In this document: piece after piece, positions 1 to 18,123 of the stretch
Position numbering within the stretch: the stretch's first letter is position 1
Layout: every line of letters begins with the position of its first letter
NCBI GenBank assembly: GCA_016790075.1
Contig: JAEUPP010000024.1
Location: 62,001-126,000, forward strand
Direction: 5' to 3'
DNA length: 64,000 nucleotides
DNA from: Rhodanobacteraceae bacterium
Lineage (GTDB): Bacteria > Pseudomonadota > Gammaproteobacteria > Xanthomonadales > Rhodanobacteraceae
Position numbers and translations under genes: made by a program
Notes under the pieces: generated by a model
What the model was told of the DNA's origin: nothing
Database searches by the model: none
Seen by the model: the letters and a program-made list of their open reading frames with translations, nothing else

Positions 1-406
1 CCGCCGAACGGTTCGCGACTTCCTGCGCCATCTGCAGCTGCCGCCGCAGCGACTTCACTTCATCGCGGAGGCCTTCGATGCGCGCCCGCTGCATCGGATC
101 GCTCACACCGTCGAGCAAACCATCGGTCTCGGCTTTCGACGCCTTGCTGGCCTTGGGGCGGCCGTACAGCGCCGCGTGCGCGGCGATCAGCGCGCGGTAA
201 GGCGCACCCGACGGATTTCGCAGCGCGCGCTCGGCCGGCCCGCCCTTGGCTTGGCACAGCGCCCCCAGGACGCCCAGGGAATAGTCGGTGCTCCCGCGCG
301 CGTGCTGCTCCTGGCAGACGTCGTGAACGATCTGCAGGGACCGCCGTCGGCGGGGGTCGGCGCCCTCGGACATCCGCAACAGCACTTCTTCAGGACGCTC
401 GCTCAT
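1..406 (-). CDS. gmtX: GmtX-like gamma-mobile-trio protein, 3' end beyond window
   Basis: An open minus-strand frame starts at an ATG (404-406) that overlaps the stop of the upstream 845-aa gene as ATGA. It runs without a stop to the window edge, so at least 135 residues are coded and the C-terminus is missing. A conserved-looking core, KGGP..RALRN..G.PYRALI, lies around residues 52-75, and the last visible part is a charged coiled-coil-like segment. As I remember the family, this matches the small third member (GmtX) of the gamma-mobile-trio, whose biochemical role is unknown to me. Position and coupling to the GmtZ-like integrase support the call. The island probably ends not far to the left. 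Confidence 0.6.
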   Translation of the reverse strand, partial: MSERPEEVLLRMSEGADPRRRRSLQIVHDVCQEQHARGSTDYSLGVLGALCQAKGGPAERALRNPSGAPYRALIAAHAALYGRPKASKASKAETDGLLDGVSDPMQRARIEGLRDEVKSLRRQLQMAQEVANRSA

Positions 407-2940
407 TCGTAGTTCTCCGTTGATGGCTCCAGTGAGATCGCTTCACGGACCGGCGGCGCGAGCGCAGGGCGCCCGTCTCGGTCTGCTGCATCGCCGTTGC
501 CGCTGAGGGCTGCGATCACACCCGCGGCCACCCTCGCCTCCAGCTGCGATTCCTTCCCGTCCAGCAAAGCCAGGGCGCGTTCGCGCCCGAACTGCACGTC
601 GAGCAGCCGCATCAGTTCGTTGCCGCGAATCAGCGCTTCTTCCTCCGACAGTTCCAACAGCACCGGCAGCTGCCCGCTTCGTACCAACAGCCGGTCGAGC
701 AACTGCGACCGCCGCAGGCTCGCCGCGCGCGTTTCGTCGCACGGATGAACGGTGGCGGCTTGGCACACCGCATCCATCACGTCGAGATCGGAAGTCGCCC
801 AGACCGCGGTTTGCAGGTCGCCCAGATCGCCGGCGAGCACGAGGTTCAACCCGCCCTGCCCTGCGCCGATCGCCTTGCACCGCTCGACCAAGCCGTAAAC
901 CGCGTGCAGCGTGCCAGCGTGGTTGGCCAGCGAGGCGTCGGCGACGTCGAGCCGCTCCTGCGCGCGCCGCACCGCCTGCGGGTCGCCCTCCTCGCGCGCT
1001 TTCTGCGCGTCGAACAGCGCGTCGTTGGCGGCGGTCAGATCCGATTCGGCGCGCTCGCGGGTTTTCTTGGCCACTTCCACGTTCACGCTCGACGCGTTGA
1101 AACGCGCGACGAGCCCTCCCAGGAATGCAGGCCCGGTGATGTGGAAGCGGCAGCGCGTGCAATTGCGCGGGCCACCCGGAACCGGGCCGTACCCGCCTTT
1201 GAGCAGCTTCGGGCCTCCGCGGTCGCACAGCTGCCCGCCCACGGGGCAGATGCCCGTGTCGACCACCATCCAGGAGGCCGGCGCGCTGCGATCCAACGCT
1301 GCGACGCCGGTGGGATCGTTGGCGACGAAGCCTTCGGCTTTGCGCGTCTCCGAGCGGAGATACCGCGCGAACTCGGCCTGGGCGCCGGTGTCGATTTTCG
1401 ACGCCGCTTCCGCCATGCTTTTCTTCATCGTCTCGGGGTCGATCTTGACGTAGTAGAGCGTCATGAGGAGCGCCGCGTGCCCCGCGATGCATTTCGACAA
1501 AATGTGGAGCGGCACGCCGCCCTCCGTGGCCAACAGGGTGATCAACGTCACCCGAAGCGTGTGTAGGTCGTAGCGCGATTTGCGCTGGACGTAGCCGTCT
1601 TCCCGGGGCGGCAGCGCGAAAGTCAGTCGGATGCGCGATCCGTCCAACAGCCGCTGGCCTTGCGTGTACAAACGATCTTCGAGCGAGACGACCGCCTTGT
1701 CCCACAGTCCCAACAGGCGGCCGCCGGTCACCGGATGGTTGGGATCGGTACCGCACGGATCGCGCATCAGGAAAAAAGCCGACCCCGAGCGAGGGACTGT
1801 CGCGAGCGAAACGTTTGGTTCGCGGATCCGGGACCACGCCAACGGCTCGGAAATCGGATTGTATCGACGTTGCCAAGCCTCCAACTGCGCCACGATCCGG
1901 ATGGCCTCGTCGTGTTGCCAGGGAATCGAATAGCCCTCTTCCGCGGCATCGGGAAAGCGATCCGCCGATTTGTTGGTGTTCACGAAAAAGCCGGTGCTGA
2001 CCTCGCCGGTGTGCGCGTCGCGGAACGCACGCAGGAATCCCCGTTGGACGCCTTCATGAGGGTGAGCTGCATGCGGTGAATCGTTGGGAATCCAGCGCCC
2101 ATCCCGGTAACACTCGGAATCCCCTTCGCCGGATTCGAGCATGCGCACCTGAAACGATCGCAGCGGCAGCAGCAACTTGAGCGCCAGGGCGGTCGCGCGC
2201 ACGGGGCACCACACGCGCACCCGTTCTCCGGTGTCGCCGTCGACCACGTCGACCCAATCGCCCTGGCGTTTGGCCCAGTCCCAGTCCTTCTCGGTCAACA
2301 TAGTGAACGCCTCCCGCAGCAGCCGGCTCGGCAGGGCTTCGCGGTACGTTTCGGAGGGAACGGGCGGTTTCTCCAGGCGAACGAGCGGGTTCCAGTGGTC
2401 CGGACTGACCAGGAGGCGCCCCAGATCGTCGGGCGCCGTCAGCCGATGCTGCAAATACCAATCGAACCACGCGGCGGCCGTGTTGTTCACCTCAGGGCCG
2501 GCGTACCCACGCCGCGCGAGATAGGACGACAACGGGATCGGGTTGACGTAGTCGCGCCTGCAGAACGCGTGCGGCTCGCGCGCGACCGACGGATGGGCCA
2601 ACAGGTAGTCCAACAACAGGTTGCCGACGGTGATGGCGCGCTTCAAGGACGTGTGTTCGCGCGCCCATTCGGTCAGCTCGGAACGCCACGCGTCCACGCC
2701 CCGCCCGGCCGCCCATTCGAACCGCACGTCTTGCCGCGCGGGCAGCGGTCTGGCTCCGTCGGCGCCGGCGCTCGATTCGTTTGCTCGGCGCCCTCGGGGA
2801 AAACGCGCGTTCCGGGCGCGTTCTTTCCGCGCACGGCGACGATCGTCCGCGAGCGATTCGAAACCACCGCTCGCTGGATCGCCGCACGGGCTCGAAGACG
2901 GATGCGCCGAGGCGCCGGAATTGGTCGTGCCATGTGTCAT
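403..2940 (-). CDS. gmtZ: GmtZ / VPA1269-family tyrosine integrase-like protein
   Basis: This 845-aa protein is the largest member of the island-end operon and probably takes part in DNA strand exchange for island movement. Tyrosine-recombinase features are visible in the expected order: an arginine in LLPLRSFQVRML near residue 261, the box H460-T-L-R463, G487-H488, and tyrosines at 496-497 (LYYVK). A cysteine cluster at about 580-620, ending in CTRC, could bind zinc. The N-terminal 100 residues are Arg/Ala-rich. Its ATG overlaps the end of the GmtY-like gene (ATGA), and its own stop overlaps the next start. Length and layout fit the VPA1269/GmtZ family. The gene name rests on recalled family features, not on a database search. 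Confidence 0.7.
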   Translation of the reverse strand: MTHGTTNSGASAHPSSSPCGDPASGGFESLADDRRRARKERARNARFPRGRRANESSAGADGARPLPARQDVRFEWAAGRGVDAWRSELTEWAREHTSLKRAITVGNLLLDYLLAHPSVAREPHAFCRRDYVNPIPLSSYLARRGYAGPEVNNTAAAWFDWYLQHRLTAPDDLGRLLVSPDHWNPLVRLEKPPVPSETYREALPSRLLREAFTMLTEKDWDWAKRQGDWVDVVDGDTGERVRVWCPVRATALALKLLLPLRSFQVRMLESGEGDSECYRDGRWIPNDSPHAAHPHEGVQRGFLRAFRDAHTGEVSTGFFVNTNKSADRFPDAAEEGYSIPWQHDEAIRIVAQLEAWQRRYNPISEPLAWSRIREPNVSLATVPRSGSAFFLMRDPCGTDPNHPVTGGRLLGLWDKAVVSLEDRLYTQGQRLLDGSRIRLTFALPPREDGYVQRKSRYDLHTLRVTLITLLATEGGVPLHILSKCIAGHAALLMTLYYVKIDPETMKKSMAEAASKIDTGAQAEFARYLRSETRKAEGFVANDPTGVAALDRSAPASWMVVDTGICPVGGQLCDRGGPKLLKGGYGPVPGGPRNCTRCRFHITGPAFLGGLVARFNASSVNVEVAKKTRERAESDLTAANDALFDAQKAREEGDPQAVRRAQERLDVADASLANHAGTLHAVYGLVERCKAIGAGQGGLNLVLAGDLGDLQTAVWATSDLDVMDAVCQAATVHPCDETRAASLRRSQLLDRLLVRSGQLPVLLELSEEEALIRGNELMRLLDVQFGRERALALLDGKESQLEARVAAGVIAALSGNGDAADRDGRPALAPPVREAISLEPSTENYE

Positions 2941-4427
2941 CGCAGAACTTCCTCAAGTTCAGTTGGCACCGCCGCGGCGATGCGTGCAGAGGCCTCACAG
3001 AGAGTCCGAGAGACCTCGCTGATGTCGGCTTCGGTGTAGACGTCTTGTGAGTCGGGCGAGCGGTGGTGCATCGCGCGCATCACGATCAACCGATCGACAC
3101 CGGCCCTCTTCAGCGCGCGGCCATACGCGTGCCGGTGGCCGTGCGGCGTGGTGCCGCGATCTTTGGCCGGCACGAGTCCGATGCGCCGAACCGCGCGCGC
3201 GTGCGCCTGCTCGTAGGCGGCGAGGGTGTACGGGTCGCCGCGGTGCTTCTTGTTTTCGCTCACGAAGAGAAACGGGTGCGGTGCTTTCGTACGGACGCTG
3301 CAGTAGGCGTTGAACAGCGTGAGGAACAGCTCGCCCCAGAAAGGGGCGAACCAGTGCACGCGCGTGCGGTGCAACCGGGGCTCGCACAACGCGAGCCGTT
3401 TCCAACCCGCATGCAGCCGGCCTTCGGCGCGGTGGCGCGGAACCATTCCGTACCGGTGCTGCAGGCAGTCCTTCCGGTTTTTGTACTGGGCACCTTCGGA
3501 CCGAGGCGGCGCGCCTTTGGACGGGTGGTACAGGTACACGAGCGCGCTGTCGGGGTTGTCCGGGTCGACGCCGACGTCCCCGACCCAGAGGTGGAACGCC
3601 TCGGAAACCCGCAGTCCTCCGCCGTGCTGCAAAATCGCGATCAGCATGTCGCGCAGACGAAACCGCCGGGCGAGCGCCGCTCCCCACGGAGCGCGCCGGC
3701 GGAAACCGTGGAGCAGCAAGCGCGGAAACAACTTCGCGTCGAACGCTTTGACCGGCCCCGGTGAGTCGCCGTATGGCCGAACGCGGACGCTGCGCTTGCG
3801 GTCCGCGGCCTCGTGACGCAGGCGGCGAAACGCCGTCTTCACCAGGGCGTTCGCGGAGCGCCGATCCTGCCACCGCAGCGCCATGCACCGCTCGGCGGCC
3901 GTTGCGGTGCGCCAGGCGTTGACGATGGGTCGACCCGTGCGGTTGCAGAGCCAGTCACAGAAGCCGTTGAGCAGGAACAGCAGCCGCGACGCGCGCGGCG
4001 CGGCACACGGCGGCCAGTTCAACCCGCGGCGTTCGTGCTCGCTCAAATGCTGGGTACCGGCGAGCAGCGTTTCGACGAAGGCGCGCAGCACGTCCGTCGG
4101 CATGCGATCGATGCCCGGGTCGAATCCAGTGATCCCGGGCGCACCGGCGGAGCTCGCGATCGAGGCGCCATCGGCTGTAGGCGTCCCAGCGCCATCGCCC
4201 GATTTTCCGCGCCAAGCGAGGTAATCAAGCAGCAGGCCCACGGCGCGCACGACTTCGCGCTGCCAAGGCACCCGCTCCTCGGCGCCCGTTTCCAGGAAAT
4301 ACTGCACCAGCGGCGAAAACGGCAACAACGGCTTGGATTCGGACTCCCGGACGTACAGCACGTGGAGCGACGCGTCGGCTTCGCGCGGCCGCGCCACGCG
4401 GGTGTAAACAGCAAGGCAACTCACCAT
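2937..4427 (-). CDS. gmtY: GmtY-like tyrosine recombinase
   Basis: A 496-aa protein with a C-terminal tyrosine-recombinase domain. R273 lies in GGGLRVSEAF, the box is H429-G-H-R432, a His-His-Arg follows at 454-456, and the likely nucleophile is Y464 in DVYTEADIS. The frame is open up to 4952, but I chose ATG 4427. The start overlaps the preceding 82-aa gene as ATGGTGA, and the upstream reading frame would lie inside two other genes. It is followed by the GmtZ-like gene with an ATGA overlap. Its likely role is integration and excision of the island together with that partner. Confidence 0.7.
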   Translation of the reverse strand: MVSCLAVYTRVARPREADASLHVLYVRESESKPLLPFSPLVQYFLETGAEERVPWQREVVRAVGLLLDYLAWRGKSGDGAGTPTADGASIASSAGAPGITGFDPGIDRMPTDVLRAFVETLLAGTQHLSEHERRGLNWPPCAAPRASRLLFLLNGFCDWLCNRTGRPIVNAWRTATAAERCMALRWQDRRSANALVKTAFRRLRHEAADRKRSVRVRPYGDSPGPVKAFDAKLFPRLLLHGFRRRAPWGAALARRFRLRDMLIAILQHGGGLRVSEAFHLWVGDVGVDPDNPDSALVYLYHPSKGAPPRSEGAQYKNRKDCLQHRYGMVPRHRAEGRLHAGWKRLALCEPRLHRTRVHWFAPFWGELFLTLFNAYCSVRTKAPHPFLFVSENKKHRGDPYTLAAYEQAHARAVRRIGLVPAKDRGTTPHGHRHAYGRALKRAGVDRLIVMRAMHHRSPDSQDVYTEADISEVSRTLCEASARIAAAVPTELEEVLR

Positions 4428-4669
4428 GCGGCACCTCCCGTGGAACGATGGACGTGACGGCGTGCGCGGCGCCGCAACAGGCGGTTGAGTTCGTGGGCCG
4501 TCAGACGAGCTAACTCGTCGCGCGCCAGCCCCAGGTGGAGCAGTCGACGCGCGACGCGACGCACTTCGTCCTCGGCTGTGTGCGATCGGTGCGCGACATC
4601 GCGGTGCGAAAGGCGGGTGCTCGTCAGGAAGCCGACGGCGTTCGCGAGCGGTGCTGAGGCAAAGCTCAT
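4421..4669 (-). CDS. Small unknown protein in GMT-like operon
   Basis: An 82-aa frame starts at ATG 4669, which overlaps the stop of the upstream HTH gene (ATGA). It ends at 4421, overlapping the start of the GmtY-like gene. The product is basic, and its C-terminus is rich in arginine and histidine (residues about 62-75). The middle part, ARRLLHLGLARDELARLTAHE, reads like one amphipathic helix or a short helix-turn-helix. I do not recognise the family. The two overlaps filling an otherwise empty 240-bp gap between coupled genes are the main evidence that it is translated. Confidence 0.55.
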   Translation of the reverse strand: MSFASAPLANAVGFLTSTRLSHRDVAHRSHTAEDEVRRVARRLLHLGLARDELARLTAHELNRLLRRRARRHVHRSTGGAAW

Positions 4670-5127
4670 CGAGCGACCTCCTGCACGAACGCGTTCGGAC
4701 CAGCGGTCGAGCTGCGGCGCACTGGTGAGTCGGTGTGGAGCTGGCGCAGACGTGCTGCGGCCGCGTCCAACGCGAACGCCGCGCGGATCCGCATGAACTG
4801 CGAGTAGCTGAGAGTCGGCAGACAGGCGGCTGCCTCGGCGCAGTATCTCTTCCAGTGAAAGCGCCCGCTTTTGCCGGGATGACCTTCTTCCAAGGAGTCG
4901 AAATCGGGGACGGCGTATTTCTTGGACGGCGTGCGGCTGTTGAACAAAGCATTGAGGGTTTGCGCGTCGCAGCCGTCCAAGTCGTCGGCGGTCAATTTCG
5001 ACTTGGCGAGGAGGCGGCGGTAACGCCGCACCCGGCGGCGATCGCAACCGACCAATCGGGCGATCGCGGCGTTGGTTTTGCGGGGACTTTCCAACAGAAG
5101 GCGAATCAAGAGTTCCAGCGTTTCCAT
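4666..5127 (-). CDS. HTH protein resembling the N-terminus of IS21 IstA, first gene of GMT-like operon
   Basis: A 153-aa protein. Residues 3-45 form a helix-turn-helix (RKTNAAIARLVGCDRRRVRRYRR). A PDFDSLEEGHPGKSGRFHWKRY stretch at about 73-94 and a YSQFMR motif near residue 109 follow. The HTH, PDW-like and YSQF order resembles the DNA-binding N-terminal part of IS21-type IstA, but no DDE catalytic domain follows. It is therefore probably a DNA-binding accessory or regulator, not a transposase. AAGGAA stands 7 bp upstream of ATG 5127. It leads a five-gene coupled operon, so it may repress or activate that operon or bind the element end. Confidence 0.6.
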   Translation of the reverse strand: METLELLIRLLLESPRKTNAAIARLVGCDRRRVRRYRRLLAKSKLTADDLDGCDAQTLNALFNSRTPSKKYAVPDFDSLEEGHPGKSGRFHWKRYCAEAAACLPTLSYSQFMRIRAAFALDAAAARLRQLHTDSPVRRSSTAGPNAFVQEVAR

Positions 5128-5480
5128 GCATCGGTTCCTTGTAGGGCGGGAAAATCCGGGCGCACGAGTCCGCTCTCGTCCCCAAAGGGCGAGCTTGACG
5201 GGGGGTGGGGAGCCGCTACGATGCAGGCGTTGTCAGCATGTCGCAAAACCCTCGGGGGCCAACCAGACTGCCAGGTCGGTTGCGCCCCTTTTTCGTACGC
5301 CCAATAAGTAGGCGACGTACCGTTTGTGTGGCTACATGTTGGCGATCTCCGGCGTTTCGGGCACTCGACGCGGGCCGTCGAGCCGTTATCAAATCTTTTG
5401 TTATTGCAGAACAGCAGAATTACGGCCGACACCGTAAATCGGTTGGCCGATTCGTCAAGCGGGCGTTGGGTTTGCGCCGA
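5128..5480. other. Gene-free gap: promoter region of GMT-like operon, possible oriT
   Basis: No convincing gene. Transcription of the leftward operon beginning at 5127 must start here. The stretch 5155-5220 is G-rich with short inverted repeats. At 5262-5290 an inverted repeat CAACC/GGTTG is followed directly by GCGCCCC. This layout recalls MobQ-type origins of transfer (an inverted repeat followed by a GCGCCC core), and a relaxase gene lies next door. The oriT reading is tentative. Confidence 0.35.
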
Positions 5481-6986
5481 TTAGGGAGCGCAGCGACGGC
5501 GACCGGGCCGCGGCGCTGGAATTCGCGGTTTGAATGCGGGACGACGGCCGGGCGCGAGCCGTGCTGTGACTCGGTTTGGAGCAACCGAGGCCGGCTCGTC
5601 GAGCAACGAATCAAACGGCGCGGGGCGCCCGCCCTGAACGCCCGTAACGCGACCGGATTCTTGTCTTCCGTACAAGTTCGATTCATCAACGCCGCGTTGC
5701 AGCGATTCGATGGGATTCAATTCCAACCGACGTAGTCCACGCCGGTACTCCGCCCACTGTCGGCGGGTCAGGCCGCGTTGTTCCGAGACATCGGTCCGAT
5801 CCAAACACGATCGCGCCGATTGCGGATGGACTGCGCGGTCGGAATGGCTGCGGTCAACGCGGGTGGCCTGCGCCACTGAATGAAGCAGCGCGGACGTCCG
5901 GTCGTCACGGTATCGATTCGCCCGCCCCTGACGCCACAGTTCGGCCAATTGGGCGTATTCGGCCGCTTGGTCCCGGACCGATCGCAGTTGCTCTGACAAA
6001 GTCAGCTCGAGCTGACGCGCGTCCGCTTGGATGGCCTGCATGTACAGCTCGACCGGGTCGCGGGTGCGCGAGGCATGCCGACTACCGGTGGTTCCGCTCA
6101 CGCGGGTCGAAGTCGTTGGGCGGGGCCGAGCTCGGCTCGGACCGTTGGAAGTGTCCTCGGGACCGCGCACACGCGAGTGAGCATCGGTACGATACCGGTT
6201 CGCCAGCTTACGGCCGTGCCGAGCGACAGAACGGTTGTCCCGCTGCACGTTTCGGTTTTCGTGGACAACGGGGCTGAAGTGGCCTTTCCTCGCCGCCCCG
6301 GTGGCGGAAACGCCCTGGTGGCGCGTGGGCGTTCGCGTCAGGCGCACCACTGCATCCAGGTCGCCCCGCTCCGCGGCTTCCTCGGCTTGAACGGTCAGAG
6401 GGCGAGGGTCAACGGTGGTCGCGATTCCGGCGTGTTCCAGTGCCGCGTTGATGCGGGCGGCCACGTTTTCGCGCATGCGCTCCGCTTCCGCCGGACCGGT
6501 GGTTTTGTCGTCCAGCACTCGGGTTTTCGGGCCGAGTCCGTCGGCACGAACCTCGCGCGTGGTCATCATCAAGTGGGCGTGGACGTTGCGATCGTCGCCG
6601 GCCTTGTCGGGCGCGTGTACGGCAACCAGCACCGCAACCCGGTACTGCTCCACCAGGTCCTGCCCGATGGTGTGCGCCAGCTCGATTTGAGCGGCCTGCG
6701 GAAGCTCAGCAGGCAACGCCACGATCAGTTCGCGGGCCGTCCGGGCGTTGCAGCGGACCTCCGCCTTCTCAGCTCGGTTCCACAGGGTCGAGGTGTCGAG
6801 CGCCCACGAGGCGTCAGCTGGGGCCAACATGCGGGCGTCGAGCACGCCGCCCTTGCGTCGGTAATCGTGGGTCCGTTCGAGGCGTTCATCCTTCAGCTTA
6901 CCGCCACAGCGGTAGGCTGCAGCGGCGACGGCGCTTTGGCCGCGGGAACGACTGAGGGTGGAGAGGCGGGAGTAGTAGATGGCCAT
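5481..6986 (-). CDS. MobA/MobL-family relaxase
   Basis: A 501-aa protein expected to nick the island's origin of transfer and lead the strand into a recipient, using a conjugation machine supplied in trans. The N-terminus MAIYYSRLSTLSR...QSAVAAAAYR is typical of MobA/MobL proteins. The metal-binding motif appears as H-A-P-D...D-R-N-V-H-A-H near residues 125-140. No helicase domain follows, and the C-terminal half is Arg-rich and low in recognisable motifs. I chose ATG 6986, not the upstream start at 7058, because the family begins exactly at MAIYY/MAIFH. A TraD-like gene lies about 2.3 kb away on the other strand. Confidence 0.85.
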   Translation of the reverse strand: MAIYYSRLSTLSRSRGQSAVAAAAYRCGGKLKDERLERTHDYRRKGGVLDARMLAPADASWALDTSTLWNRAEKAEVRCNARTARELIVALPAELPQAAQIELAHTIGQDLVEQYRVAVLVAVHAPDKAGDDRNVHAHLMMTTREVRADGLGPKTRVLDDKTTGPAEAERMRENVAARINAALEHAGIATTVDPRPLTVQAEEAAERGDLDAVVRLTRTPTRHQGVSATGAARKGHFSPVVHENRNVQRDNRSVARHGRKLANRYRTDAHSRVRGPEDTSNGPSRARPRPTTSTRVSGTTGSRHASRTRDPVELYMQAIQADARQLELTLSEQLRSVRDQAAEYAQLAELWRQGRANRYRDDRTSALLHSVAQATRVDRSHSDRAVHPQSARSCLDRTDVSEQRGLTRRQWAEYRRGLRRLELNPIESLQRGVDESNLYGRQESGRVTGVQGGRPAPFDSLLDEPASVAPNRVTARLAPGRRPAFKPRIPAPRPGRRRCAP

Positions 6987-11406: not shown

Positions 11407-12957
11407 TCATTTCAGGAGCGGACGGATCAAATCCAACTGCAGCCACTTGCTCCATCTCAGTCCCGGAAACAACTCGGCCAGCTCCGCAGCGGTCCACGCC
11501 CGCATGTAGTCGGCCTGATGAACGTCGTCGCCGGCCTCGTGGCCGACGAACGCGCGGCGCCGCTCGGCGGGTAGGCCGCTCGCTTGCAGCTCTTGAACGA
11601 CGGTCTTCCGCAAGCTGTGAAAGCCGAGGATGCCGGTCGATCGCCGCGGTCGAATGCCGAGTCGGTTCAAGTGGAAGCCGAACCCTTTGGAGATCGAGTT
11701 TCCGGCACCAGCCTTACCGTCGATGCGCATCTCCGGAAACAGCCGCGTTTTCTCCTCCCGCCGCAAGCGCTCGACGCGGTCGAGCAAGCCCAGTCGAACC
11801 AAGTCCGGATGGATCGGCACCACGCGCCGCGAAGCCGCCGTTTTCAGCGATTGGCCGTCCGAATCGGTCGTGATCCGCATGCACGGGACGCCCTGCTCTT
11901 CCACAAAGTCGGCCAGATAAAGCTGAGCGATCTCGCTCACGCGCGCGCCGGTGTAAAGACCGATCAAGGCGGCCCATCGGACGTGCTCCGTGCGAACCCT
12001 AGCCAGGTTGTCGGGTTTGAAGATCAGTTGAAGCGCGACCAGGTCGAAGGCCTCCCACTGGAAGCCTTCCGCTCGGCGGGCAGCTTTCTCTTTCTTGGAG
12101 AAGACCACCGCGCCTTTGGCCGGGTTGGCTCCGGAAAGCTTGCCGCGCGTACCGAGGAAGGCGAACAACTGCGCCAAGTGGGAAACCATGTTCCCGACGG
12201 TTCGCTTCGTCGCACCGGCCTGACGCTTGGGACCAGGCTGCACGGACGTACCGGCCAGCAGCATGCCGTGCGCCCACTCGCCGACCGCTTCCCTGCCGAT
12301 GGCGGAAACCGGAACCCCCTCACCGACCGACGCGGCAAACGACTCGAACGCGCGCCGCCGCTGCGCCCAGGTATTCGGCTTCAACCCGCGGGACTCGGCC
12401 TCGGTGTAGAGCTGGATGGCTTGGCGCAAGGTCAGTTGGACCGGCTTGCGCGGAGCCGCCGTTGGAGGCGCCGTCGGAGCTGGCAGCGCGGCGCGGGAGC
12501 GCGAACGCGGCCGAGCCACCTGTGGTGTTTGAGCGGCCTGAGCCGAGACGAGTAACCGACTGAGCACCTCCAAGACGCTTCCGACCTGATCGCGCGCGTG
12601 GTCCGCCGGCATTGGGCTCAGCTGCGGCGTTGGGGAATCGAAAGCGGAAGCTCGGTGGATCACTGGGGCGTTCGGCTGCTCGAAGTCCAGCGGCAGTGTC
12701 CGAGGCAGGCGCTCGCGCTTGTAGGCCAGAGCTTCGCCCAAGGGATACCAGACCGCGGAACCCCGCTTGTCGTCGTCACCGCGATACGGGTACGGGGGCT
12801 TCGGCGGGCGCGTGCGGCGCCGTTCCTTCAGCTGATCGATGCCCAACCCGGTGATGAGCCCAACCTGGCGGGTCGAGAGCGGCAGACTCGGATCCAACGC
12901 CCAGACGCCTTTTGAAATCAGCAGCTCATCGCTGATTCTTTCTCTTTTCTTCGGCAC
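11407..12957 (-). CDS. Tyrosine-type site-specific recombinase (516 aa)
   Basis: The C-terminal catalytic domain is complete: R339 in GLYTGARVSE, H447-S-L-R450, G472-H473 and nucleophile Y484 in QADYMR. A SAM-like core-binding domain lies at about 170-280, and the N-terminal 165 residues include an HTH-like LSTRQVGLITGLGIDQL and a Pro/Ala linker. It starts with GTG. It is probably the integrase of a separate element nested in the island, or a former one, since another integrase lies beside the tRNA. No matching excisionase gene is adjacent. Confidence 0.85.
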   Translation of the reverse strand: MPKKRERISDELLISKGVWALDPSLPLSTRQVGLITGLGIDQLKERRRTRPPKPPYPYRGDDDKRGSAVWYPLGEALAYKRERLPRTLPLDFEQPNAPVIHRASAFDSPTPQLSPMPADHARDQVGSVLEVLSRLLVSAQAAQTPQVARPRSRSRAALPAPTAPPTAAPRKPVQLTLRQAIQLYTEAESRGLKPNTWAQRRRAFESFAASVGEGVPVSAIGREAVGEWAHGMLLAGTSVQPGPKRQAGATKRTVGNMVSHLAQLFAFLGTRGKLSGANPAKGAVVFSKKEKAARRAEGFQWEAFDLVALQLIFKPDNLARVRTEHVRWAALIGLYTGARVSEIAQLYLADFVEEQGVPCMRITTDSDGQSLKTAASRRVVPIHPDLVRLGLLDRVERLRREEKTRLFPEMRIDGKAGAGNSISKGFGFHLNRLGIRPRRSTGILGFHSLRKTVVQELQASGLPAERRRAFVGHEAGDDVHQADYMRAWTAAELAELFPGLRWSKWLQLDLIRPLLK

Positions 12958-13974
12958 TTACTTCTCCCGCAACGCCGCAGAGCGTTGTCGGGCGGCGAGC
13001 TTACCGATCGATTGGAAGACACTTGAGATAGCCGAACTTGCTGACTGGCCCCTCAACTTCTCCGGACCTAGGAAGATCGCCGAACAACGCAGGGCGCGAC
13101 CTAGCCTCCTACGCACATAGGGAAGCGGCGTAGACGGGGCCGACGGGTGAAGTGGCCAGAGGCTAGCGTGACCACGCTCGAAACGAACTGACCGATCAAA
13201 AACAGGCCATGAGCAAACGAACGTTGGAAAGGAGCGTAAGAACTTAGGGCTGGACTTGGGCCAGCTCTAAGCGAGACGGCAGTTCAAGAGCACGACGCGC
13301 AACGCACGCGTAAAAAGCAAAGACTGGTCAACTCGAACTGCGTAAGTGGTCGGTGAGGCAGTGATCAGTGCCGAATCTGAGAACTGGCTCATGCCGGAGA
13401 TCACGAATTGCCGACCAGTTCGAGCGCATCGATGATTCCCCCGGCCAAAGGTTCGGAATGAAGCGACGCGGCGAACAACAGCGAATCTACAAAACTCTTG
13501 GCGGGGTAGCATTCACCGACCTCGCTGGTAAACCAAGCGAAGAGTTGCCTACCTAACAACCTGTTGGGAATTACCTCATTTCGCGCCAAACGATCGACGC
13601 ACTCAATCTGACTGGCCTGATCGGGACGCTGGCACTACCTCCGCCTCCTGTCAGGTCGGCGCAGGCTCCCACCAGCGATCCAGAAGCCATTGAGACATCG
13701 GCGCATCGCAAGAGCGATTCTCCACCAATTACCGAACACAGCAAGTCGGCAACGCAGTACCCTTCAACCCCGGACTTTGCCAGTAATCACTGGCACACCT
13801 GCTGAGGGAAGGTCAATCGTACGAATGCAGCCTGCCGACAAAGTCGCGGTGCAACACCTGTAGTCAAGCGAGCGGTTTCGAGGCTTGTTCGGGCCATTCC
13901 GAGCTTGAACAACTGCCTGTGTAAGTTCGATGCAAGTTTTCATCTTCGTGGCCAGTGACAAGAGGAGCAATAAG
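12958..13974. other. About 1 kb without a supported gene
   Basis: Several short frames overlap on both strands at 13267-13589, and a frame without a start codon runs from 13557 to 13804. None has a good ribosome site or a recognisable product. Composition is close to neutral with no long repeats that I can see. It may contain decayed genes or the attachment site of the neighbouring recombinase. Confidence 0.4.
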
Positions 13975-14865
13975 ATGATCTATGTGCATTCAGGGGATGA
14001 GGGTATCGACAAGCTGGTGAAGCGCTTTTGTGCCCCGCTATTCGCCACCACGGAGTTTCTGCAGGGCGGGCACAATGAGTCGACCACAAGCGCCACCGTC
14101 ACCTTCGTCCGGTACCAGGGAAAGATCTATGCTGTAACCTGTCACCATGTCCTGTCGGCGTTCTTTGCAGAGGCCATAAGAACAAAGCAGCGTATTGCTC
14201 CAGCGATTCATTCCGGAAAGACAGTTCGCCAATTTGCGTCCTACAGCCGAGAGGGCAAGTACCGGTGGAGTTTCCTGAGTTGCCGGGACTTTCCTGAGGC
14301 ATCAGATATTGACAGTGCTGCAGAGCTGGATGCGCTAGACCGAGCGAATGCGGACCGACCAGACATCGCGATCGCCGACATAACCGAGGTTTGGCATGCT
14401 GTTCAGGAAAACCGTGACGCAGAATCGATCGACCTCGACGCGTGGGTCGAGCCTGATTGGTCGGTTGTTCAACCAGTATGGGTCGCTTACGGGTTTCCCA
14501 ACGGGCACAAATCTCTCGTGCAGGACAAAGTGGCCGCACCGATGCCACGCGTTGCAGTTGAACTGGCATCTTCGCTGCCGTCCATCGAGAGGCCGACCTA
14601 TGTGCTTTGTTCAACGCTAGAGATAGAGCACGGATGGGGTTTCAGTGGATTGAGTGGCGGCCCCGTCTTGGTCGCCCATAACTCCGATGACCGCTACGCG
14701 TTTGTTGGCCTAACCTTCGAAGGATCTCCGAGCTCCAAGGATCCGGAGCAAAATGCGGAGGCTTTTCTTGGAAAGAGCGATATAGTGTTGCGGGGCTATC
14801 ACCTCACTCCACATGCGTTCAAAGAGTGGCTGTCAAATCGGAAGTTCGGCGTAGAGCTCGTCTGA
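13975..14865 (+). CDS. Trypsin-like serine protease, cytoplasmic
   Basis: A 296-aa protein without signal peptide. The start at ATG 13975 is fixed by GAGGAG seven bases upstream, not at 13930. A trypsin-fold triad is visible in order: H57/H58 in AVTCHHVL, D130 in RPDIAIADI, and S227 in G-L-S-G-G-P. The spacing fits the peptidase S1/S46-like trypsin-like domain. Intracellular trypsin-like proteases of this kind occur in mobile islands and have been tied to phage defence in several systems, but no partner such as a NACHT ATPase is present here. Lower GC than the neighbours points to transfer. Confidence 0.7.
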   Translation: MIYVHSGDEGIDKLVKRFCAPLFATTEFLQGGHNESTTSATVTFVRYQGKIYAVTCHHVLSAFFAEAIRTKQRIAPAIHSGKTVRQFASYSREGKYRWSFLSCRDFPEASDIDSAAELDALDRANADRPDIAIADITEVWHAVQENRDAESIDLDAWVEPDWSVVQPVWVAYGFPNGHKSLVQDKVAAPMPRVAVELASSLPSIERPTYVLCSTLEIEHGWGFSGLSGGPVLVAHNSDDRYAFVGLTFEGSPSSKDPEQNAEAFLGKSDIVLRGYHLTPHAFKEWLSNRKFGVELV

Positions 14866-15215
14866 TGGCGAATCAGTGGGCGCACTGCGGAAAATAACCT
14901 ACCCATCTCCCGCAAAACTCCGTCTACCAGCTCACGTAGCTTGCGAATCGGATGATCCGCCAGCACCCGTGCAGCCACCGAGACTTACGAAAACTTTCCT
15001 AGCTTCTGGGTATCGGCCCTGCGCATTGGTCGCTGTGCGATTGATCAGGCCTATGATTGTGCATCCAGCGGCGGGTTTCGACAGCCTGCTGACGGCTACC
15101 AGTCATTTCAGTGCGCTTATTAAGGTAAAGCCACCGGCTCATTTGACGTGTCAAAGACCGCAGGGTTGCGAACCCTGAATTCTTTGGTAGCGTAAAAGTA
15201 AATCGGAGCCTAACC
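14866..15215. other. Gap downstream of protease gene
   Basis: A frame of 100 codons exists on the plus strand but has no ribosome site and reads as Pro/Arg-rich noise. No repeat or terminator stands out. The region is A+T-richer towards its right end, where the small 15216 gene begins. Confidence 0.3.
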
Positions 15216-15341
15216 ATGAGTATGTTAAACATAACCAGCTCAATACTATTTGTTTCGACCGTGGCGCTCTGCTGCTGCGTCGCATATAGGGAATGCAAAA
15301 GGTCGGTAGTCGACCCTAAAGAGACCAGACAAGGTCTTTAA
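15216..15341 (+). CDS. Possible 41-aa single-span membrane peptide
   Basis: A GGAG stands about eight bases upstream of ATG 15216. The product has a hydrophobic helix at residues 5-24 (ITSSILFVSTVALCCC) followed by a charged tail with a KRSVVDPKE stretch. Size and shape recall small membrane toxins or regulatory peptides. The stop lies 26 bases inside the convergent 104-aa membrane gene, so the two 3' ends overlap in antisense. Nothing identifies a family, and translation is uncertain. Confidence 0.35.
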   Translation: MSMLNITSSILFVSTVALCCCVAYRECKRSVVDPKETRQGL

Positions 15342-15630
15342 CGAAAACATACAATACCGGGTAGATTATCCCTAATGCGCCAAGAACTGCCGACATGATG
15401 GTCCAAGTATAAATTGATTTCTTTCTCTGCTCTGTCCGCCCACTTACGTCGATATCCCATAACTCTTGAGATATTTTCCTGACTGTAAGCACGTAAATTA
15501 AGGCTAGCGTGCACAGAAAAAACATACCAGCTGCAGGAGTACCGTATTTATATGGGATATATACCCACAAGACGAGCGATAGCACTATCGCTATTCCCTG
15601 AGCGGCAAAAGTGATTCGAGTAATACCCAT
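15316..15630 (-). CDS. Small membrane protein, unknown
   Basis: A 104-aa protein with three predicted membrane spans: about 7-27 (ITFAAQGIAIVLSLVLWVYI), 32-50 and 75-98. A basic loop (RTEQRKK) lies between spans two and three. GGAGG with six-base spacing precedes ATG 15630. Codon use is A+T-rich relative to the surroundings. I do not recognise the family. It stands alone between the protease and the tRNA-proximal integrase and overlaps the convergent 41-codon frame at its 3' end. Confidence 0.6.
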   Translation of the reverse strand: MGITRITFAAQGIAIVLSLVLWVYIPYKYGTPAAGMFFLCTLALIYVLTVRKISQELWDIDVSGRTEQRKKSIYTWTIMSAVLGALGIIYPVLYVFVKDLVWSL

Positions 15631-15768
15631 TGAACACCTCCGAAAAAATTGAATTCTTCAGTCAAAGCTGAAAGTCCTTCGGCGAGCGACCATTGCCCGC
15701 TACACCGCCTTCACGCCAAACCATTCTTTGCTTACTGCGCTTCTTTTCTTAGCGCCTCCGCCATCCGT

Positions 15769-17304
15769 TCAGCCACGGTCCGAGTCCTCCTCTCCGCTTG
15801 CCGCGAATCCTCGAAGTACGCCCCCAAACTGCCCCGCCCGATAAGCCGCCAGCGGCGGCACGGGCAAACTGGCCGCAATCCGGTCGATTCGCTCCTTGCG
15901 GTGGGGCACGGTGGACGCGTCGATGTAGTGCCGCGCCTGGACCGACCGCGCCTCGTGTCCGGTCAATGCCCCGACTTGGGCTTCCGAGAACCCCAACTTG
16001 TCGCCTGCCGTGATGAAGGTGTGGCGGGTCGAGTGGTACGACACAGCTTTGTCACTGATTCCGCAGGCGCTGCGAAGCAGTGTTCTGTTGAACCACTTGC
16101 CGACTCGATCCCCCGGCCCATTCTTCGCCCCCACGGAGCCGCCCGGAAACAACGCGGCGAATCCCAACGCCTTCACGTCGGCGGCGTAATCCAGAAGGCC
16201 CAGCGCCAACAGCCGTTCCGGCACGGGCACGAAGCGCTTGCTCTGAGCGTTCTTGACCGACTTGGCGCCTTCGCCCGTGATGTGGAAGCCCCAGACACCG
16301 CTCACCTCCGCCAAGTCGCTCACCAGCAGTTGGGCGGCTTCGCTCAACCTAGCCCCGGTGAAGAGACCGAACAGCGGAATCCAGAAATACATCGGGTCGT
16401 CGTCGCACTGCTCCGCCCGCCGTACCGGGTCGAACAGCGCGCTCAGTTCTTCGGGCCGAAACCCGCGCTTGGTCTTGGTGTACTTGTCGGCGTTGGTCTG
16501 CAGGCGCAGGCCGGCCAATGGGTTGTGCGCCAATTCCCGGCGCTGGACCGACCAATTGAAAAACGTCCGCAACCGGTCGAGGTGTTTTTCCATCGTCCGG
16601 ATGCTGAGCCCACCCTCGCCCCGCGTCTTGGCCTTGGCCACGATGGCCTTGGCGCTCAAACCGCGGTAGGCGGGCAGCACGCGGGCGCGGGCCGGCCAGG
16701 AGGCAAGCGCCTCCCGAAACGCGTCGACGTGCGTCGGCCCCAGGTCCGCCATGGGGATGTCGTCGGTGAGGTCGCAGAACAACGCCACGCTGTGTTCGGC
16801 CTCCAACTGCGTGGATGCGGCGCGGCTGGTCGAGGAGTAGTGGGCGAGGAAGCGCTTGGCCGACTCATGGAGGGTCGGTCCCGATGGAAGCGCCCGTGAA
16901 GCGCTCGCCGCACGCCAGGCACCCGCACCTGGCAGACCGGGGATGACCGCCTGCAGGACCGACAGGGCTTCCATCACCCGCGCGTGGCCAGCGGGGCCGT
17001 CGGCCTTGATCGTCAGCAAACCCGGCACGTTGATTTCGTAGCCGGTGCTGACGGGGAAGACCACCGACTGAATCGCGCCCTCAAGCTGACTTTTTGTATC
17101 CAAGTCCCCTCCGGCGCATCGGATACTTTGTATCGCCTGCGCCAAAGCATAGCCCATGCGAGCGGCCAACAGGCGCGCGGCATCGCCCGTTGAGCGCAGG
17201 GGGCGCACCAGATACCGGGTGCCTGTCTTGGCACGGATGTCAGCAGGAAGGAGGAACCGGGCGTAGAGCCCACTGGGACGGCGAAGCAAGAACGCCTTCG
17301 GCAC
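15769..17304 (-). CDS. Tyrosine integrase of the tRNA-Arg island
   Basis: A 511-aa integrase. The N-terminus MPKAFLLRRPSGLYARFLLPADIR matches the arm-binding start of DUF6538-type integrases. Core-binding domain about 150-290; catalytic residues R319 (GLFTGARLSE), H424-S-T-R427, G449-H450 and Y460 (RHYIDA). GTG start. It lies, with an excisionase-like gene, between the island and the 3' end of tRNA-Arg(CCU), the usual position for an integrase that targets the tRNA. It should cut and join at the tRNA 3' end during insertion and excision. Confidence 0.88.
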   Translation of the reverse strand: MPKAFLLRRPSGLYARFLLPADIRAKTGTRYLVRPLRSTGDAARLLAARMGYALAQAIQSIRCAGGDLDTKSQLEGAIQSVVFPVSTGYEINVPGLLTIKADGPAGHARVMEALSVLQAVIPGLPGAGAWRAASASRALPSGPTLHESAKRFLAHYSSTSRAASTQLEAEHSVALFCDLTDDIPMADLGPTHVDAFREALASWPARARVLPAYRGLSAKAIVAKAKTRGEGGLSIRTMEKHLDRLRTFFNWSVQRRELAHNPLAGLRLQTNADKYTKTKRGFRPEELSALFDPVRRAEQCDDDPMYFWIPLFGLFTGARLSEAAQLLVSDLAEVSGVWGFHITGEGAKSVKNAQSKRFVPVPERLLALGLLDYAADVKALGFAALFPGGSVGAKNGPGDRVGKWFNRTLLRSACGISDKAVSYHSTRHTFITAGDKLGFSEAQVGALTGHEARSVQARHYIDASTVPHRKERIDRIAASLPVPPLAAYRAGQFGGVLRGFAASGEEDSDRG

Positions 17305-17450
17305 GAAAGTGATGCCTGTTCGATGACTGGACCGCCGATGATGATCGGAGTCGGCCGCTCCCCTCGCGGGCCCACGACGTTCGAGTCATGGCGCCATCGG
17401 CCAGCCGGCCGCTGGATCGTGACCCTGCGAATCCCAGACGAGCCATGACG

Positions 17451-17882
17451 TCAAACGGACTGAAGCGTTGCCCTCAAGCTCTCGGCTTCCAGCAAAGCCA
17501 GCACTTCGCTCATGAAGTGATTCGCCCGCGCCCGGCGCTGCGCCTCCCGCACCTTGTTGGGCAGTCGGCCCCGCCGCGGCGCGTCGATTGCGTGCTGCGG
17601 CTTCGAGGCGACGCTCCGTCGAGGCGGGCCAACTGGTGGCGCCGAAACCTCCGCCGGATCAGCTAAGCCGTCCATCCAGTCGGCCAAGGCCGTGATCGGG
17701 ACCAGCCAGCGCCCCATGACCTTCCGCAGACCGGGCAAGAGGTCGCCCCGGCGCAGCCCCGCGGTGACGGCTTCGCGTCCGGCGCGGTTGCCGTCCCGCC
17801 CCAATACCTTGGCGACGTCGTCCGCCGTCAGCATGGCCTTGCCGGGAAACATCTCGCGCAGGAGGTCGAGCGTCGCACCCAT
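17451..17882 (-). CDS. Excisionase/MerR-like DNA-binding protein
   Basis: A 143-aa basic protein. Residues 15-70 form a winged-helix-like region: LTADDVAKVLGRD, then GLRRGDLLPGLRKVMGRWLVPITALADWMD. This has the look of a helix-turn-helix followed by a wing with the R-W-x-V-P-x-x-x-L motif shared by AlpA/PrtN-type excisionases and regulators. The rest is Pro/Arg-rich with a final charged helix. It is 146 bases upstream of the integrase on the same strand and next to A-rich direct repeats, so directionality control of the integrase is its likely task. Confidence 0.6.
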   Translation of the reverse strand: MGATLDLLREMFPGKAMLTADDVAKVLGRDGNRAGREAVTAGLRRGDLLPGLRKVMGRWLVPITALADWMDGLADPAEVSAPPVGPPRRSVASKPQHAIDAPRRGRLPNKVREAQRRARANHFMSEVLALLEAESLRATLQSV

Positions 17883-17920
17883 GGGTTTCCTCGCAGTCGA
17901 GGGCCAGCCTACCCGCCAGG

Positions 17921-18046
17921 GCGGGGAAAATTTGGGGAAAATCCCGCCCCATTTTCGGCTGTTTTGGCCTGTTTTCGTCTGCTGGCCTGCAGCACACCAG
18001 CGAGAGGAAAATGCCCTAAAACCGCAGGAATTTCAGCATTTTCGAG
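17921..18046. promoter_or_regulatory. Repeats between excisionase-like gene and tRNA: candidate attachment region
   Basis: GGGGAAAAT occurs twice as a direct repeat (17923-17931 and 17934-17942), followed by CCCCATTTTC in inverted sense. GAAAATGC (18007-18014) and GCATTTTC (18036-18043) form an 8-bp inverted repeat that ends three bases before the tRNA 3' end. Such short A-rich repeats beside an att core are typical integrase/excisionase arm sites. The second copy of the att core was not found in the window. Confidence 0.45.
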
Positions 18047-18123
18047 TGGCGGCCCCGATACGATTCGAACGTACGACCTTCCCCTTAGGAGGGGGACGCT
18101 CTATCCAACTGAGCTACGGGGCC
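18047..18123 (-). tRNA. tRNA-Arg(CCU)
   Basis: A complete cloverleaf can be drawn. The acceptor stem is GGCCCCG/CGGGGCC, with discriminator G and an encoded CCA (18047-18049). The D arm has AGCTCAGTTGGATAGAGC. The anticodon stem TCCCC/GGGGA has loop CTCCTAA with anticodon CCT, and the T arm has GTTCGAATC. The 3' end faces the island and is the likely integration target; the gene stays intact after insertion. Confidence 0.95.

Follow-up and report, generated by a model that had tools for sequence, protein, structure and literature searches.

Why is a set of recombinase genes preceded by two small genes that are tied to it by overlapping start and stop codons? The question arises from the left end of a 64,000-nt stretch of DNA (the window) from a Rhodanobacteraceae bacterium (GCA_016790075.1, contig JAEUPP010000024.1, our contig C41, positions 62001-126000), which shares its genus with, among others, Tahibacter aquaticus DSM 21667 (G003) and Lysobacteraceae bacterium SCN 69-320 (G001). 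There, a helix-turn-helix (HTH) gene and a gene for an 82-aa protein head an operon for the gamma-mobile-trio (GMT) proteins GmtY, GmtZ and GmtX. A preliminary description proposed that the two small genes are obligatory first genes, and that the five products form one machine of five subunits. Our analysis favors another reading, to which we assign a probability of about 0.5: an antisense-RNA cassette linked to a relaxase, together with two DNA-binding proteins derived from IstA, controls the GMT module within a probable integrative and mobilizable island. To our knowledge, no control circuit for GMT has been described. Our literature search found nothing that joins antisense RNA, tyrosine recombinase, integrative element and leader, and nothing that joins the gamma-mobile-trio with a relaxase, the latter being a weak negative, as the founding GMT paper lies outside the coverage of the search.

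The GMT operon

All five open reading frames lie on the minus strand in the order HTH, 82-aa gene, gmtY, gmtZ and gmtX, and neighbors overlap by 4, 7, 4 and 4 nt, respectively, the 7-nt overlap between the 82-aa gene and gmtY being ATGGTGA. The coupled leftward arrangement described earlier is thus confirmed. The tyrosine recombinase GmtY (2937..4427, 496 aa) exceeds the cut-off of its NCBIfam model (NF040693, 391.5 bits; cut-off 340) and matches PF00589 (E 5e-10). By eye we located an R-HxxR-H-Y pattern (R273, H429, R432, H455 and Y464), the motif of tyrosine recombinases, and a profile built from five GmtY sequences aligns with the XerC-like recombinase of PDB entry 4a8e (E 9.1e-5). GmtZ (403..2940, 845 aa) is a large tyrosine recombinase-like protein that matches PF13009 (Integrase_2, E 1.1e-59) and, over nearly the full length, NF047926 (E 3.8e-175), with 584.1 bits against a cut-off of 600, i.e. 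16 bits under. The 5' part of gmtX (2..406) scores 154 bits with NF040692 (cut-off 40); the gene crosses the window edge with 135 of its 236 aa inside, and is complete at L002:9696-10406. With GmtY and GmtX above their cut-offs, GmtZ just under its own, and an unbroken gmtY-gmtZ-gmtX order, the operon is a genuine GMT operon.

Two IstA-like proteins of narrow distribution

The first product, of 153 aa (4666..5127, minus strand), matches the IS21 transposase model NF033546 weakly (E 5.2e-4) at profile positions 8-112 of 294, so that the DDE catalytic part is not covered. In one single BLASTP comparison it shares 35% identity over 110 aa with the IstA of locus L160 (E 3e-12), which bears out its earlier description as IstA-N-like. 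By sequence, it corresponds to the DNA-binding N-terminus of IstA and lacks the DDE domain. The best match of the HTH profile among PDB sequences has an E value of 0.22.

The second product, a basic protein of 82 aa (4421..4669, minus strand), might be taken for a novel protein. We reject this view in favor of a second HTH of the IstA-N type without a second domain: it matches the first HTH of the family, scoring 24.3 bits with a hidden Markov model (HMM) of 11 HTH sequences (3 N-termini of IstA and 8 small HTH proteins), versus a best of 9.8 bits in 1000 shuffles. It is predicted to be all-helical with modest confidence (mean predicted local distance difference test score, pLDDT, 71.6), and it has no match at E 0.1 in NCBIfam, Pfam or PHROGs.

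To evaluate how widespread the leading genes are, we surveyed 92 GMT loci, comprising 8 from plasmids, 4 from a 398-genome sample of the phylum, and 80 kept of 117 confirmed relatives from a genome-collection scan; at least 1 kb upstream of gmtY was available in 86 of the 92. A same-strand HTH gene precedes gmtY in four of them, three T. aquaticus copies and SCN 69-320, or in 5/93 when the window is included. The HTH is therefore rejected as a general GMT component, its occurrences ahead of gmtY in this survey being confined to Tahibacter/Lysobacteraceae. The 82-aa gene is found in no other locus examined. Accordingly, neither small gene is an obligatory first gene; of the pair, only the HTH recurs elsewhere. 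A single branch separates the five loci with the HTH from all others in a 91-row tree of GmtY (Shimodaira-Hasegawa-like approximate likelihood ratio test, SH-aLRT, 95), with a long-branch warning that includes the row of the window.

Homologues of the 153-aa protein occur in these four other GMT loci and in four IstAB loci, and the window protein shares only 29-36% identity with those of the other four GMT loci. A search of 369 genomes of the class returned only the genome of the window, G001 and a weak match in G190 with internal stops (E 3.8e-4). The HTH was absent from plasmids and viral contigs by tblastn, and none of the GmtY patterns in viral contigs was confirmed. One further match of the HTH search, in the plasmid locus L021, is an opposite-strand IS21 adjoining gmtY.

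As a separate observation, 10 of the 92 loci, most of them from Betaproteobacteria, have a gene of another family directly ahead of gmtY, encoding a protein of about 102 aa with unassigned function (e.g. L025:5613-5918). It gives no match to the HTH model.

A relaxase cassette shared by two recombination engines

Upstream of the HTH gene, the window encodes a MobQ/MobA-type relaxase (5481..6986, minus strand; 501 aa including its ATG) that matches PF03389 (MobA/MobL, E 1.1e-41) and scores 194.9 bits with the MobQ model NF041496, whose cut-off is 200. This gene and the RNA unit described below lie just beyond the span covered by the preliminary description, which mentions neither. Each of the clade's five GMT loci, i.e. 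the window and four others, has a MobQ-type relaxase gene at this position, and phmmer (E 1e-3) found none in the remaining surveyed GMT loci, where the available upstream DNA is in some cases short. The linkage of an own relaxase to an integrase module is a feature of integrative and mobilizable elements, and the locus is probably part of such an island.

The same cassette also precedes a different engine. In total, nine cassettes were found, five with GmtYZX (window, L009-L012) and four with IstAB (L152, L153, L160 and L193). In L152 and L153 the RNA unit described below lies between the MobQ relaxase gene and the small HTH gene, behind which come istA and istB; in L193 from T. aquaticus, which was found by protein, the relaxase is followed by the RNA unit, the HTH, istA and istB. 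L160 carries relaxase, a gap of about 3.4 kb, HTH, RNA unit, istA and istB, with a second, weaker RNA copy ahead of the HTH. Scanning 233 genomes of the family with the HTH alignment, with 15 candidates scored per genome, yielded 11 matches in open frames of <300 aa: eight known cassettes, L193, and the candidates G1147 and G1165. The last two were rejected because they hold IS21-like pieces but neither a relaxase nor a convincing RNA unit, G1147 lying on a contig of 4,620 bases.

These cassettes bear on the possibility that an ordinary GMT island captured a decayed IS21 and plasmid-derived mobilization genes at its edge, their linkage being accidental. IS21 elements do land at such sites, as the opposite-strand copy in L021 demonstrates. 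However, the same gene order is retained in 5/5 GMT loci of the clade and in four IstAB loci, and the low identity of the HTH protein of the window to those of the other four GMT loci agrees better with inheritance together over a long time than with a recent accident. We consider an accidental linkage very improbable.

The start of the relaxase gene deserves a separate remark. In the near-copy pairs L010/L012 and L152/L153, homology starts at about the second relaxase codon, and the codon before this start differs over eight loci among ATG, GTG, CTG, TTG and ATC. The island may end at the relaxase start (window 6986; L010:3656; L012:3629; also L152, L153 and L193), with the start codon then set by the joined DNA.

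A divergent promoter-hairpin unit in the HTH leader

The cassette contains a conserved unit on the strand opposite to the operon, at 5193..5294 (plus strand) in the window. It consists of a sigma70-like promoter (5195-5222) and a putative RNA of about 5229-5294 with two stem-loops, the first weak, the second strong and terminator-like (~5253-5289) and followed by TTTTT. The consensus scan found one promoter at this unit versus 0.1 expected. In the five GMT loci the layout is TTGAC, 17 nt, TAnnnT, about 35 nt, a strong hairpin and, in most copies, a T-run. The unit was first spotted by eye in nine copies, four of the five GMT loci having a second copy before gmtY. A divergent promoter thus lies, as a sequence pattern, inside the leader that it would target.

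Folding of the nine single strands gives minimum free energy z values from -2.39 (window) to -5.83. In the alignment of these copies by MAFFT alone, two helices are paired in 79.2% of 144 cells, with a covariation of 0.405 versus 0.016-0.196 in slid controls; for 14 copies aligned to the covariance model, 89.5% of 220 cells are paired and the covariation is 0.601 versus 0.049-0.160. The window copy scores 63.5 bits with this model, but is itself one of its seed sequences. No Rfam family matches the unit.

Scanning the eight genomes of the genus with the model returned the nine known copies, two matches of 35.1 and 32.3 bits, both in relaxase-HTH-IstAB loci, and one of 22.4 bits without a relaxase or HTH nearby. 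Across 299 genomes of the order we obtained one new match of 31.5 bits, in the relaxase-HTH-IstAB locus L160, and four of 21.5-25 bits that were taken as chance; the two of these that were inspected (L161 and L162) are near neither a relaxase nor an HTH. The filters of the order scan were stricter and missed the 35.1-bit copy of G001, so that copies of such strength elsewhere in the order may have been missed. In 76 GMT loci, namely the 80 collection loci minus the four of the Tahibacter clade, the model gave one chance-level match of 15.1 bits.

The same stretch could instead be a DNA element, either an operator or a palindrome linked to an attachment site or an origin of transfer (oriT), to which the relaxase or the HTH proteins would bind. 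All accepted units adjoin an HTH gene and have a relaxase gene in the vicinity, and DNA palindromes can covary too. On the other hand, the succession of promoter, short spacer, small stem, terminator-like stem and T-run (in most copies) is the layout of an RNA gene, and the promoter positions are among the invariant columns of the alignment. We regard the DNA element as unlikely, and an antisense RNA of about 66 nt to the HTH leader as probable; its expression and function are inferred.

Leader layout, coupling and RNA copy number

From a sigma70-like sense promoter pattern (TTGACG-N16-TACGGT) at 5431..5458 on the minus strand, the HTH gene would receive a leader of about 300 nt. This layout recurs in 9/9 leaders, where the distances upstream of the HTH are 331-439 nt for the sense promoter match and 62-105 nt for the antisense promoter, although two near-copy locus pairs among them leave fewer than nine independent cases. 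As background, the promoter pattern occurs 46 times in 442,000 nt, a count that includes these sites, or about 0.054 times per 520 nt. At L153:3564, L193:6572 and L160:4122 the RNA model also weakly matches sense promoters, and a GCTACG-like context is common to both promoters, as if both were derived from one duplicated sequence.

In the four loci with a 4-nt overlap between the HTH gene and its successor (window, L152, L153 and L193), one RNA copy was found in 4/4. Where the HTH is uncoupled, with a gap of 180-1448 nt (L009-L012 and L160), a second RNA copy precedes the recombinase in 5/5. The relaxase tree splits the same four from the same five loci (95/96). The engine type changes at least twice on this tree, a borderline result (with all 9 rows, the approximately unbiased test, AU, gives the grouping of the GMT loci into one clade a p of 0.047) that depends on the partial relaxase of L160; without it, the GMT loci form one side of a branch (97/97).

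These arrangements allow the proposal of five subunits to be evaluated. It holds that the small proteins are subunits of the recombination machine with a role in directionality or end-binding, that coupling fixes a five-subunit ratio, and that the hairpin unit is merely a promoter region with a terminator. Consistent with it, every junction of the window operon overlaps, the HTH is IstA-N-like, and the N-terminal region of IstA binds transposon ends. However, the other 88 of the 92 surveyed loci lack a same-strand HTH of this family ahead of gmtY, and in 4/5 GMT loci of the clade the HTH is uncoupled, lying 180-547 nt from gmtY. The HTH also heads IstA/IstB operons and is therefore not tied to GmtYZX, the stems of the unit covary, and the unit recurs before uncoupled recombinase genes. 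The five-subunit machine thus appears rather unlikely, and the start/stop coupling is better read as shared control.

Proposed mechanism

In the mechanism that we propose for the antisense-RNA cassette, the relaxase would move a circular form of the island between cells with the help of a conjugative element, and the cutting and joining of the island would fall to GmtY and GmtZ, assisted by GmtX. As accessory or regulatory factors, the two HTH proteins of the IstA-N type would bind DNA but not cleave it. Transcription from the sense promoter just after the relaxase gene would produce the leader of about 300 nt, and the divergent promoter would produce the two-stem-loop RNA of about 66 nt complementary to it. 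Pairing of this RNA with the leader may block or attenuate the HTH operon. In the window one antisense RNA could control all five genes, because each gene after the HTH overlaps its predecessor by start/stop; in relatives with a recombinase uncoupled from the HTH, the second RNA copy lies ahead of the recombinase.

Several known systems act in a comparable manner. FinP consists of two stem-loops, the second being a terminator, and RSF1010 is of the MobQ type. FinP/traJ, Inc/repZ and RepX are presented as short cis-antisense RNAs on the leader of a control gene, like the RNA proposed here, and RepX from pRSF1010 is called a structural mimic of FinP (PMC9977716). Differently from these systems, our proposed target is an HTH-recombinase operon, the distance to the start codon is larger, and Rfam offers no match.

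As a recombination module, the locus shares with GMT islands the same three proteins in the same, coupled order, and differs from them in that a relaxase, the HTH (two in the window) and the RNA unit precede gmtY. With IS21 it shares HTH proteins similar to the N-terminal DNA-binding region of IstA, and four sister loci have full istA and istB behind the same cassette; the window operon, in contrast, has neither a DDE domain nor IstB, and the genes after its HTH are the 82-aa gene and gmtYZX. Strand-biased circularizing elements (SEs), GInts, Tn554 and RITs also have several tyrosine recombinases, and the first three have a small accessory protein. SEs are described as apparently without a mobilization system and GInts as putatively non-mobilizable (PMC10214605); the window locus, which has a relaxase gene, would differ from both in this respect.

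A number of observations weigh against the antisense-RNA reading. The structure model of the HTH protein matched nothing in the PDB at E 0.001. The helix positions were chosen on the same alignment that was used for counting, and the later alignments (A7 and A10), both fitted to the model, lean towards structure. In the window copy the first stem has only about 3 bp, the pattern scan lists no terminator or RNA hairpin for the unit, and the consensus scan did not list the sense promoter. The RNA would lie 102-167 nt upstream of the HTH start codon and not over the ribosome-binding site, which FinP covers. The copies at L160:4345 (23.9 bits) and in L193 (22.9 bits) score no better than the unlinked matches in L162 (26.9 bits, inside an rpsA-like frame) and L161 (23.7 bits); they were accepted on position, promoter and hairpin, and the two copies of L160 depend on L160:4345. 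The spacing between relaxase and HTH reaches about 3.4 kb in L160 and about 2.2 kb in L011. The match between coupling and copy number may reflect one historical event, since it follows the relaxase lineage. Finally, no island ends were found: in the other genomes of the genus (seven others, eight in total), neither a long match nor an empty site turned up for the Mob-side flanks from the window and from L012.

Island ends, cargo and surroundings

The border of one canonical GMT island was mapped in plasmid pOZ181. Comparison of this plasmid (L024:5785) with an IncHI2-type plasmid stretch without the island (L138) gives an 11,216-bp insert in the loop of a terminator-like hairpin. There gmtY lies at the edge of the island, with 125 bp between it and the junction, whereas gmtY of the window is preceded by the relaxase, HTH and 82-aa genes. 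In this one example the insertion lies exactly in the loop of the intrinsic-terminator-like hairpin, and the element ends share an inverted TATACAGTTAA.

Beside the GMT locus, two integrase-like genes (11407-12957 and 15769-17304), whose Pfam Phage_integrase matches fall below the gathering score, precede a tRNA-Arg gene at 18047-18123, and the region 11407-18123 is likely an integration hotspot.

Similar to GMT islands, the wider region here contains defence-like genes. A gene for a capP-like metallopeptidase (PADLOC, E 2.9e-39) lies about 7 kb past gmtX at L002:1743-2591 (C41 53743-54591), and this regulator of the cyclic oligonucleotide-based antiphage signalling system (CBASS) type may be island cargo. 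In SCN 69-320, genes for a Pycsar-type TIR effector and a two-transmembrane (2TM) effector lie downstream of the GMT operon (L012:11820-13327).

Implications

The association of the cassette with two recombination engines leads us to a broader and more tentative proposal, which we hold at somewhat less than even odds. A portable cassette of MobQ relaxase, FinP-like antisense RNA and IstA-derived HTH may plug into chemically unrelated engines, either a tyrosine-recombinase trio or a DDE transposase, and may place each under one antisense brake through translational coupling or a second RNA copy. Its presence ahead of IstA/IstB as well would show that the modules for control and transfer can move independently of the recombination engine. 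Shared control would also give a reason for the start/stop coupling without a five-part machine. If the reading is true, a relaxase-linked GMT with an antisense-RNA-like leader would provide a cell-to-cell route for defence-rich islands, together with a testable switch.

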